Shown here piece by piece: positions 55,983-60,206 of a DNA stretch of 64,000 bases (the first letter of the stretch is position 1; each line of letters opens with the position of its first letter). The notes under the pieces were generated by a model. It was not told the origin of the DNA and did not search any database. It saw only the letters and a list, made by a program, of their open reading frames with translations. The position numbers and the translations under genes were made by a program. Origin of the DNA: Frankia alni ACN14a (GTDB lineage: Bacteria > Actinomycetota > Actinomycetes > Frankiales > Frankiaceae); NCBI RefSeq assembly GCF_000058485.1, contig NC_008278.1:5512962-5576961 (forward strand), written 5' to 3'.

Positions 55983-58900
55983 TCACCCGTCGAGGTCGAG
56001 GTCGTAGCGGAACAGTCCGGCCGAGCCGGCCATGACGAGGCCGCGGCCGAGGGCGGGCGGGAGCCACGTGCAGGCGCGGGCGCCGCCGTCGAAGCGCATC
56101 ATGGCGACGCAGCGCCAGGTCGCCGCGTCCCAGATCCGCAGCGCGCCGTCGCCACCTGCGGTGGCCAACCAGGCCCCGTCCGGCGAGAACCGCGCCGCCC
56201 GGACGGTGTGCACGTGCCCGGTCAGCGTCACAACCGGGGCGCCGTCGTCGACACGCCATACCCGCGCCGTGTGGTCCGACGCGGCGGTGACCAGCAGCTC
56301 GCCTCCGGGCGAGAAGGCGACGCCGAGGATCTCGCCGGTGTGCCCGGTGAACTCCCGGCGCAGCCGGAGGGTCGCCGCCTCCCACAGCCGCACGCCGCGA
56401 TCCCGCCCGCCCGAGGCCACCCAGCGGCCGTCCGGGCTGATGGCGCAGGCCAGTGCGGCCCCCCGGTGCGCCGCCCCGGCCGGCACACCCGGCGGGCCGT
56501 CCGGATGCCCCGTGGACGCCGTCCCCACCGGTGACGCCCTCCCCACCTGCGACGCCGTCGGCGACGGGTGTCCGCTCGCGATGTCCCACCGCCGAAGCGT
56601 CCCGTCCATGCAGGTGGCGACCGCCCAGGTGCCGGTGGGGTCGAGGGCGAAGCAGGTGATCTCGGCGTCGGCCGTCAGCGTCGCCGCGACGGCGCCCGTC
56701 ACCGGATCCCACCGACGCAGGGCGGTGAGCGTCTCGGGCACGAGCACCCAGGCTCCGTCGGGACTCACCTCGGCGCCGCGGGCCATCTCCACAGCGCCGG
56801 CGATGGCGGTGCCGGTGCGCTCGCCGGTCGCCAGGTCCCAGGCGGCGGCGGTGCCGTCGTCGGAGTAGGCGACGACCCGCGGCGCGACGCCCGGCTCGCG
56901 GGAGTCCACGACGGCGCAGCCCTTCATCGGCTCATCCCGGCCGCCGGCGGACGGTTTCGGCAGGTCGACGTCGGTGGCCCACACCCGGATCACGCCGTAC
57001 CGGTCCGCGGCGGCCGCCCAGGTCCCGTCCGGTGAGAGAACGCAGGTGCGGCTGCCCACCGCCCCCGACAGATCGGCCCGGTGACCGTCCGCCGACACGT
57101 CCCACAGCCGGATCACGTCATCCCGGCTCGTGGTCGCCACCAGCCGGCTGTCCGGGCCGACCGCGGCGCCACGGATCGCCCCCGAGGCCTCCCGGAGCAT
57201 TCCGATCCGGTGGCCCGCGGGCATCGACCATCGACGGAACGTGCCGTCCTGCCCCGACGATCCCAGCCAGCTCCGGTCCGGCGCGACGACCAGCGCCAGG
57301 ACGGGCCCGCGATGGCCGGTGAGGGTCATCGTCGGCGCCCCGGTCGACGGGTCGACGATGCGGATCACACCGTCCTCCCCGGCGACAGCGATCCAGCCCC
57401 CGTCCGGGGCCGGGACGCAGCAGCGCAGCGGTACGTCGGCGACGGTGACCGCGAGCAGGCAGGCCGCGCCGCGCGCATCCCACCAGCGCAGGCTCCCGTC
57501 CTCGCCGACCGAGAGGACGACGTCACCGTCCGGGCCGAACGCACAGGCGGTGACGCTCCCGACGTGCCCGCGTCGCACCTGTGACGGGGCCGCCCGGCGC
57601 GGGGGTACCGCCGGATCGGGCTCCCCTGGCCCGCCCGGCCACGACCCGCCCACCGGCAACCTGTCCGCCGACGACCTGTCCGCCGACGACCCGCCCGCTG
57701 ATGACCCGTCCGCCGGCAACCCGCCCGTCCACACCGCGGATCCGTCGTCCCACACCCGCGGCACCGCCCAGGTCCGCACCGTGCCGTCCGCCCCGGCAGA
57801 GGCGACCGTGCGGCCGTCCGGCGCGAACGCGCAGCCGAGCACCTCGCCGTCGTGGCCCGTCAGCACCGCCTGGCCCCGCCCGTCCGGCACCTCCCACAGC
57901 CGCACGGTGCCGTCCCGACCCGCGGAGGCCAACATCCGCCCGTCGGGGGCGACGGCGAGCCCGTCGACCCAGCGACGATGGCCGCCGAACGTGCGCCGCA
58001 GTGCCGGATGCGGCTGGTCCGGACGCGACCACCGGTTGGTCAGCCGGGGCAGGGCGACGTGGGGCGCGAGGGCGGACCGGGCGTCGTCGAGTTCGGGGCT
58101 GCCGTCGAGGCGGCTGAGCAGGACCGCGCCGAGGGAGGCCGGCGGGTCGGTCGGGGCCAGCAGGTGGGCGTTGCGCAGGATCGCGCGGCGCAGGGCGGCG
58201 AGTACCGGATCGTCCGGCAGGACGGTCGCCGCCAGGGCGAGGTCGGCCTGGACGGCGACCGGGCCGAGCTGCGGGCGTTGCAGCTTGGCCAGCGTCCAGC
58301 GCAGATCCCCGACCAGCGCGGCGACCTCGGCCGTCCGGCCCGCGCCGACGAGATGGCCGACGAGGTGGGTCCACGCGTAGTCGGCGGACTCCGGCAGCAG
58401 CCACCAGGGCGCGCCCGACGCCCCCGGCGCCGAGGCCGGGACCGAGGCCGGCGCCGCGGCCGGGGCGGGCAGGAAGGTGTCGCGCAGCGCGTCGCAGAGC
58501 ACGGCCTCGAACTCGCGCAGCCGCTCCTCGCCGACCCGGGCCCGCAGGTAGGTGCGCAGCACGTCCTGCAGCAGCAGCGAGGGCGGCGACCTGCGGTAGG
58601 CGACGACCAGGGAAAGATCCGCCAGCTCCTGGCAGAGGTCGTCGACCTCGTCCGGATCGAGATCGCCGGTGGTCCCCCAGTAGGCGTCGAGCACCCGGCG
58701 CGGGATCTCGACGTCCTCGGGGAAGACCGCGAGTTCCAGGTAGCGCTCCAGGCGGTGCCCGGTCAGCAGGCCGAGGCTGGCCGCCAGCGTGGCCTCGACG
58801 GCCTCGGATCGCTGCGCCGCGCGGGTGACGTCGAGCCCGGTCGGACCGCGCCGGCGCATCCGGCGCAGCACCCGCTCGGCGGCCCGGGGCAGGCTCATGC

Positions 58901-60206
58901 CGTCGCGGACATGCCGCACGAGCGCGCGGTTGACCAGGCGCACCAGCACCGGCCAGCGTCCGGTCACCCCCAGCAGCCGTTCGGCCGCCTCCGGCGCCTG
59001 CGTGCCGAGGTCGCGCAGCAGCAGCGTCATGGCCTCGGCGGGGAGCATTGCCTGGATCTCGATCATCCGCGCCCGGGGCACGAGGTCACGCAGCCGGGTG
59101 GTGACGAGTCGGACGGTGCCCGCCCCGCCCAGCAGAAACGGCTGCAACTGGGTGGGGTTCCACACGTCGTCGACGACCAGCAGCCGGGACTCGTCACCGA
59201 GCAGCGTCCCGAGATGGAAGCCGGCCTGCTCCGGATCGGCGAGGGTCGGCCGGACGCCGCTGAGCGCCTCGCTGAGATCGTTGATCCGTTCCGCGAGCCG
59301 GGCGCCGTCCAGTGTCTCCCCGATCGTGACCCAGAGTAGCCCGCCGCCGAACGTCTCGGCGATCTCCGCCTGCCGGCAAACCGCGCGGGTCAGCGTGGTC
59401 TTCCCCATCCCGCCGGTGCCGTGCAGCACGACGGGCTCACGGACAGCGACAAGACGGGCCCCGCCCGCCGCGCTCGCGAGCACCTCGGCGAGCACGGCCG
59501 CGGTAAGCGCGGGGCGGGGCACGGAGTCGTCCCGGTCGCCGGGGAGCATCCACGGCCTGCGCCGACCGCCCCCGCCCGGGATGCCCGCGACGCCGCCGGC
59601 CGGATCCAGCCCGGTACCGCCCGTGCGGACCACGCGCCGTTGGCTCTCCCGCAGCTTCACCAGGGCGTCGAGGACGGCCGTCTCCAGATCGCCGGCGCTG
59701 CGAAAGTCGGCTGTGATGATGCCGGACTCGCGCAGCCGGCCACGGAACGCCTTCTGGCGTTCCGCGTGGTCCTCGTCGACGAACTCACCGAAGGGAACCT
59801 CGGCGAGATAGTCCAGCAGGAACACCAGGCGGGGCATCCCGGCCCGGGTGGCCGTGTCGAACTCCAGCTCGGTGTAGGACGTCTCGGGCTGGTTGGTCAC
59901 CAGCGAGCCGTACCGAAATCCGATGAGTCCCAGGTAGACGTCGGAGGAAAGGACCGTCCGCACGCAGAAGTCGGCGGGATCGGCGTCCCGGGCACCGAAG
60001 TACTCCATGTCGATCACCCGGTCGCCCGCCAACGCGACGGCCCGCTCGGCGGCGGCGACGAACGACCGCTCCCGTGGGAACCGGCGCAGCTCCGCGGTAT
60101 GGCTCAGGAACACCCGCCGTTCGCGCTGGACCGGCAGCCCACCGCCGGCCGACGCCGAGCCGGGTACCCGAACACGTTCCGGGAACGGATCAACCGGGAA
60201 CGCCAT
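55983..60206 (-). CDS. STAND ATPase: DUF4062 - NB-ARC - 14 WD40 repeats
   Basis: A 1407-residue signalling NTPase. Residues about 30-130 match DUF4062 ([53 protein letters not shown]). NB-ARC follows: P-loop [18 protein letters not shown] (K269), Walker [10 protein letters not shown], and [14 protein letters not shown] winged-helix/helical arm (about 430-720) leads to a WD40 region from about 732 to the end. I count 14 repeats, as expected for two seven-bladed propellers, broken by a Ser/Gly/Asp repeat insert. No signal peptide. It is oriented against and inserted between cobU and cobT. ATG 60206 lacks a ribosome binding site. Relatives act in defence or signalling; its own role is unknown. 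Confidence 0.85.
57655..57730 (-). repeat. In-frame repeats in a WD40 linker
   Basis: Short repeats of 15 bp with the core GTCCGCCGACGACC encode [14 protein letters not shown] sequence between the second and third WD40 repeats. Confidence 0.7.

Follow-up and report, generated by a model that had tools for sequence, protein, structure and literature searches.

It has been reported in a recent preprint (PMC13174449, 5 May 2026) that DUF4062 is a TIR-like NADase domain, which serves as an antiphage effector in the Klebsiella protein KpSwz (Swarozyc) and is active in human TEP1, the only active NADase among the human DUF4062 proteins tested in that work. The KpSwz chain in the Protein Data Bank (PDB 10wc) has 326 residues and binds the phage portal through a small auxiliary domain of the winged-helix type, and the animal proteins TEP1, NWD1 and NWD2 are described in the same source as having DUF4062 before a STAND ATPase, with an Apaf-1-like helical domain and, in several of them, WD40 repeats. 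In this study, we describe a gene of Frankia alni ACN14a whose protein of 1407 residues has no portal-sensing auxiliary domain after DUF4062 but NB-ARC, a helical domain and WD40 repeats instead. The gene lies next to cobT and cobS in a stretch of 64,000 nucleotides (NC_008278.1, positions 5,512,962 to 5,576,961, forward strand; hereafter the window) of a genome of 7,497,934 bases in one contig. We read its product, with moderate confidence, as an NLR/Apaf-1-like receptor held at one fixed locus, with DUF4062 as TIR-like NADase effector and with an exchangeable sensor.

A first-pass annotation of the window had described DUF4062, NB-ARC with P-loop GTGGMGKTT and about 14 WD40 repeats in STAND order, and this anatomy was borne out by Pfam and by a hidden Markov model (HMM) of the blades. 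The DUF4062 match (E 2.6e-13; 50.4 bits against a cut-off of 24.7; full-length scan) covers residues 31-119, the Pfam core, and the domain end at residue 190 is an estimate. NB-ARC was found at residues 259-396 (E 1e-12, scan of the N-terminal 703 residues), and the match to an APAF-1-like winged helix (E 7.6e-5) lay below the cut-off of its Pfam model. A profile of 11 N-terminal sequences aligned with Apaf-1 (PDB 1z6t) at E 3.7e-20 over profile positions 192-614, in a single co-linear stretch that covers both the nucleotide-binding and the helical domain without interruption. The P-loop, Walker B, TTR and GLPL-like motifs are conserved, as is typical of STAND and NB-ARC proteins with C-terminal repeats. 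WD40 was recognized by Pfam in nine stretches of the full protein (E 1.7e-83). Fourteen blades were segmented by eye, and the HMM built from six of them recovered 13 of the 14, that is, the six by construction and seven of the eight others (weakest E 0.009), with one non-significant match (E 0.91) on a shuffled control. The protein has about 14 blades by this count, consistent with a predicted arrangement as two propellers of seven.

Apaf-1 shows the same co-linear order of NB-ARC, winged helix, helical domain and WD40, while in the Frankia protein DUF4062 replaces CARD, LQD replaces LHD, and there are 14 blades against the 7+8 of the Apaf-1 propellers. TEP1, NWD1 and NWD2 carry NACHT rather than NB-ARC and are likened here by description, no TEP1 sequence having been compared; one Pfam TEP1 propeller model passes its cut-off on the Frankia protein, which may reflect WD40 likeness only. 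The Frankia protein is also not known to associate with vaults, a further difference. The antiphage STAND proteins Avs and bNACHT follow a like logic of effector, STAND ATPase and C-terminal sensor (PMC10907252), from which the Frankia protein differs in its NB-ARC type and DUF4062 effector. In a literature search on DUF4062, bacterial STAND proteins with WD40, Frankia NB-ARC/WD40 proteins and sensor swapping, the supplements of PMC13174449 lying outside its scope, no listed title dealt with this Frankia family. A second DUF4062-NB-ARC-WD40 protein is encoded in the same genome (L073 5047-8817; G000:C1:3910504), in which the motif is the usual LHD; the surrounding 13.5 kb gave no match to CobT.

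When residues 1-203 were compared with PDB at E up to 10, three matches were obtained, and the sole significant one was KpSwz (10wc, E 3.2e-5), spanning residues 65-175. In this alignment SYTELEF of the Frankia protein lies over SFTEKAF of the KpSwz E97A structure, in which the column of catalytic E97 reads Ala; since the 10wc construct begins at residue 15, counting the offset identifies this Ala as E97, and E115 is thus the predicted catalytic Glu of the NADase-type domain. E115 is Glu in all 24 orthologs linked to cobT and in the 11 unlinked sequences that have DUF4062 (the other three of 14 lack the domain there), whereas its neighbour E113 is not invariant, being Gln in G031. The alignment of E115 with E97, together with PMC13174449, supports the earlier proposal of a TIR-like effector, and the accompanying remark that DUF4062 is little characterised has been superseded by the same preprint. 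Among five close species (10 pairs), the TIR-like part was the most conserved portion of the protein (94-99% identity; non-synonymous divergence, dN, 0.00-0.04), and the ratio of dN to synonymous divergence (dN/dS) of 0-0.17 in the DUF4062 part and 0.15-0.23 in the NB-ARC part indicates purifying selection.

The catalytic Glu and the P-loop residues are kept across genera, and the nucleotide lock carries a change of its own. At the His position of the MHD-type motif, which aligns with the His of Apaf-1 YYLHDL, all 22 linked sequences have Gln and all 14 unlinked sequences have His (two of them as LHQ). The linked motif is LQD, written MQD in three sequences of genus g7; G005 also has LQD, and G024 was left out of this reading. 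This His-to-Gln replacement, which is new here, is a fixed change specific to the cobT-linked group. In the plant NLR NRC1, the His of MHD contacts adenosine diphosphate, and changes in the motif are reported usually to give an autoactive receptor (PMC6713354).

A further new finding is that, in closely related Frankia species, the history of the WD40 sensor differs from that of the rest of the gene. Over the same 10 pairs, the propellers were 70-89% identical (dN 0.06-0.21), and their dS was 0.37-0.46 for G000/G004 versus G011/G003 and 0.15-0.26 within G000/G004 and within G011/G003. In the quartet of these four genomes, the sites supporting (G000,G011), (G000,G004) and (G000,G003) stood at 48:8:13 before residue 725 and at 2:175:6 after it (Fisher test of the first two topologies, 8e-39), with a single best breakpoint at residues 719-725, 12-18 residues ahead of the first blade (likelihood-ratio statistic 189.6). 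Protein trees of the two halves, based on 14 of 21 sequences after seven of g7 with no cut site found had been dropped, conflict in the same way: the upstream half groups G000, G011 and G009 (100/98), while the propellers group G011 with G003 (100/100) and G000 with G004 (95/95). The gene of G009 is a mosaic too, a second change of history being placed at residues 1145-1277 by one test and at 1266-1283 by another. Three controls side with the upstream half, namely cobT (20:3:4), cobS (24:3:1) and the rpoB locus with flanks (30:2:2). Among 126 quartets of nine genus genomes, which share genomes and hence are not independent, 37 had conflicting best topologies, 29 of these at p < 0.05/126. G000 and G004 are single contigs and the others drafts, in which WD40 genes can be misassembled, but with 175 sites sharing this pattern misassembly is hardly the cause. 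Lineages thus appear to have exchanged the sensor half, as one would expect if it serves in recognition.

The possibility that the class B sensor, that of G011 and G003, was brought in by shared downstream DNA was ruled out, as blastn of the 3' flanks found only the gene end; the flanks of the two genomes differ, so the sensor did not arrive with a common downstream segment. Class A sensors are those of the window and of QA3, class B sensors those of F. torreyi and F. gtarii. In G003 (L182), about 12 kb with frames resembling a transporter cluster lie between the receptor and cobU, while other genes occupy this space in G011 (L183), suggesting that the 3' side of the receptor tends to rearrange. 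No donor paralog for the class B propeller was recognized within the genus: with the window protein, not the class B propeller, as query, none of the non-orthologous propeller matches listed exceeded 59% identity, and these were short. In G007, the propeller region contains a tandem repeat of the GAVPVE type at which the assembly breaks (at the start of L069 and the end of L072).

That the effector is conserved while the sensor evolves faster and is exchanged as a block suggests recognition of something variable. Phage would be the likeliest trigger given that KpSwz is antiphage, although phage defence by the Frankia protein is a conjecture. We propose that at rest the two WD40 propellers would keep the NB-ARC switch closed, and that a ligand on the propellers would release it. 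The freed NB-ARC domains would then oligomerise and bring DUF4062 domains together, the clustered domains may hydrolyse NAD+, and with the fall of NAD+ the infected cell or hypha would stop or die. For the Frankia protein, all of these steps, from autoinhibition and oligomerisation to NADase activity and a trigger linked to infection, are predictions from related systems. Recombination would renew the sensor half by joining alleles from different species, with effector and switch staying conserved at one ancestral site of the Frankiaceae.

Bacterial DUF4062 genes are described as patchy and horizontally spread (PMC13174449), whereas the cobT-linked group is vertical at one site. Our order sample comprised 35 genomes, all of one family (Frankiaceae) and of seven genera, and 31 of them gave an N-terminal profile match at E <= 1e-30, paralogs included. 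An ortholog adjoining either the cobT-cobS pair or a diverged CobT was found in 24 of the 35, from five of the seven genera (G000, G001, G003-G009, G011, G012, G014, G016, G017, G019, G021, G024, G027-G033), and in 11 of the 13 genomes of the Frankia genus sample, always beside the cobT-cobS pair. In a tree of 35 sequences, 22 linked ones fell on one side of a branch (100/100), and those of genera g1, g5 and g7 each grouped together (100/100); G024, the linked copy of G005 and the unlinked G004b were left out of it. Twenty-two of the 24 linked copies are open without internal stop, that of G007 running to a contig end; the exceptions are G005, split over contigs, and G024 (L174 5132-9000), in which DUF4062 and NB-ARC-WD40 lie in different frames through a sequencing error, a frameshift or a split gene. 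Genes flanking the receptor locus are conserved across linked genomes, and the G+C of the receptor gene is like that of its neighbours. In the Frankiaceae, therefore, the receptor gene has long stood next to cobT-cobS and has been passed on vertically, without the patchiness, horizontal spread and adjoining defence genes of a mobile defence island.

Eleven genomes are without an intact linked gene (G002, G010, G013, G015, G018, G020, G022, G023, G025, G026, G034), and absence is weak in G015, G022, G023 and G026 because these genomes are less than 90% complete. Remnants were sought at the cobT locus of 10 of them (all but G015; in G034 the diverged-CobT locus). In G002, a scar of 66 residues (1342-1407; 42% identity, E about 1e-10) lies between cobU and cobT, and in G018 and G020 a WD40-rich remnant survives that lacks DUF4062 and has the same internal deletion in both (L175 5115-7328; L176 7305-9544), that of G020 also changing frame. 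The seven other loci held no remnant above 40 bits, the stretches of G013, G022 and G026 being only 3-4 kb. The first-pass annotation had taken the gene to be inserted between genes that are adjacent in relatives. It was right that the gene runs tail-to-tail with cobU and head-to-head with cobT, but cobU and cobT adjoin in only one of the 13 genus genomes, G002 (in G005, G007, G010 and G011 they lie on different contigs), where the scar marks the adjacency as gene loss. Recent insertion or foreign DNA is ruled out by neighbour-like G+C, old synteny and this scar. Presence at the same locus in all relatives with a housekeeping pattern had been named there as grounds for refutation; this is half borne out, the site being the same but the gene not found intact in 11 of the 35 genomes, three of which have remnants, which fits a conditionally useful gene.

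Beyond the family, 18 of 246 genomes of a class sample (best five candidates per genome scored) matched at E <= 1e-60, 17 of them in Frankiaceae and one by NB-ARC only. A collection of 84,980 species yielded 116 confirmed relatives and 79 loci kept, 18 of which had CobT nearby, all in Frankia, Parafrankia or Pseudofrankia records; the nearest named relatives were Frankia torreyi CpI1, Frankia sp. AiPs1 and Frankia sp. QA3, and unlinked DUF4062-NB-ARC proteins occur elsewhere in it, for example in Paractinoplanes, Pseudonocardiales and cyanobacteria.

This long association raises the alternative of a metabolic sensor for CobT, its substrate nicotinate mononucleotide or B12 status, which would trim NAD when the pathway is disturbed. 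While the linkage itself, with divergent starts 217 base pairs apart in the window, and the retention of a CobT-like gene adjoining the receptor in G028, G031 and G033, where cobU and cobS of the block are gone, speak for such a role, cobT is present in 35 of 35 genomes including the 11 without an intact linked receptor, and the receptor abuts cobS, not cobT, in G007, G008 and G012. In g7, the adjoining CobT has diverged, having lost LGEGTGA and a further 11-residue motif, which we take to be parts of the active site, and a canonical cobT lies elsewhere. Exchange of the sensor half would be unexpected for metabolite sensing, and a scan of the window against Rfam at gathering threshold matched no known RNA, a cobalamin riboswitch included, by which such elements are ruled out at that threshold. 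We thus consider metabolite sensing unlikely, and the cobT link is probably best read as an old address, not a function, because genomes without the gene keep cobT and the adjoining CobT of g7 lost conserved motifs. The g7 CobT-like gene (L162-L168), in which the Glu of LGEGTGA is Asp and the 11-residue loop is altered, is possibly a CobT pseudoenzyme or a gene of new function; G034 carries a diverged CobT-like gene without receptor nearby (L181). A mobile pair of STAND and CobT, suggested by the two copies in g7, was ruled out, synteny showing the diverged-CobT site to be the ancestral locus.

Equally improbable, in our judgement, is a receptor for allorecognition or developmental cell death that would tell self from non-self rather than detect phage. 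Frankia is filamentous and its sensor types are common to several species, but we know of no cell fusion or incompatibility in Frankia. In the fungal NLRs het-d and het-e, allelic polymorphism lies in a double WD40 propeller sensor (PMC12222747), a point in favour, while their repeats are near-identical with hypervariable sites and those of Frankia are diverged blades exchanged en bloc. Least likely of all is a relict, an old STAND gene decaying under relaxed constraint beside the cob locus with a propeller mosaic from ordinary recombination, as the losses, the shared deletion of G018 and G020, the G002 scar and LQD for LHD might suggest, given the purifying selection, the catalytic and P-loop residues kept across genera and the open frames noted above.

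Several observations also weigh against the receptor reading that we favour. Defence genes seldom occupy a fixed housekeeping locus, and more than half of bacterial DUF4062 genes are said to adjoin a defence gene (PMC13174449), whereas PADLOC matched none of the eight neighbouring frames in the window and gave for the receptor only HEAT-ARM_XIII over the WD40 region (E 1.1e-31) and mad8 over NB-ARC (E 0.0053). The switch itself could be altered or idle, given that LQD stands where LHD is usual. Exchange between closely related species by homologous recombination can be selectively neutral, and dN/dS of the propellers, although raised (about 0.3-0.55), does not exceed 1. Of the controls, MBL-CobU (9:12:10) and the dnaE locus (16:11:13) do not discriminate between the topologies.

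Features of the locus are given in Table 1. Gene calling relied on a simple model of codon usage, with six genes as training set, and placed the cobT start at 60466 and that of the receptor at 60113. The ATG at 60206 is supported as receptor start because GGATACGTT, which looks like the -10 element of a leaderless promoter, keeps its spacing in 11 of 11 genus orthologs; it was not found in 10 sequences from other genera. The neighbouring gene is a fusion of a metallo-beta-lactamase (MBL) fold with CobU, whose N-terminal part also matches the anti-Pycsar protein Apyc1 (E 3.4e-5, below cut-off), and genus g7 retains an MBL part at loci that have lost the CobU half (L164, L166, L167, L168, L181).

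Table 1. Receptor gene and neighbouring features, in window positions
Feature	Position	Strand	Basis
DUF4062-NB-ARC-WD40 protein, 1407 residues	55983..60206	-	open frame and translation, Pfam
DUF4062/TIR-like domain, residues 31-190	59637..60116	-	Pfam; alignment with KpSwz 10wc
Glu115, aligned with catalytic E97 of KpSwz	59862..59864	-	alignment with 10wc
NB-ARC and winged-helix region, residues 216-560, approximate limits	58527..59561	-	Pfam; Apaf-1 1z6t profile alignment
P-loop GTGGMGKTT, residues 263-271	59394..59420	-	sequence alignment
LQD in LHD/MHD position, residues 546-548	58563..58571	-	Apaf-1 alignment
Apaf-1-type helical domain, residues 561-718, approximate limits	58053..58526	-	Apaf-1 profile alignment spans domain
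Breakpoint interval between histories, residues 719-725	58032..58052	-	likelihood-ratio statistic, one breakpoint
WD40 blades 1-7, residues 737-1084, putative first propeller	56955..57998	-	blade HMM
WD40 blades 8-14, residues 1085-1407, putative second propeller	55986..56954	-	blade HMM; blade 14 by eye only
GGATACGTT, -10-like element ending 7 nucleotides before start codon	60214..60222	-	
MBL-fold/CobU fusion	54454..55905	+	Pfam CobU E 4.3e-48, Lactamase_B E 1.3e-7
cobT	60424..61560	+	Pfam DBI_PRT E 9.8e-125; GTG start at 60424 read from sequence
cobS	61524..62390	+	Pfam E 1.1e-43; gene-calling start 61560

More broadly, it is a tentative and still doubtful idea that the Frankiaceae hold here a bacterial immune or allorecognition locus like the NLR loci of plants, animals and fungi, with a single fixed site, an NADase effector and an Apaf-1-type switch that stay conserved, a nucleotide lock in which His has become Gln in this clade, and several long-lived sensor alleles common to different species and shuffled by recombination at the joint of switch and sensor. 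TEP1 and Apaf-1 have been known chiefly as animal proteins; the Frankia protein offers a bacterial NADase-type domain, an Apaf-1-type switch and a predicted double propeller in a form that can be directly expressed and tested, and the sensor types of related Frankia species provide a natural domain swap for finding the trigger. DUF4062 genes are thus not all roaming defence cargo, since one group has been kept in place across a family.

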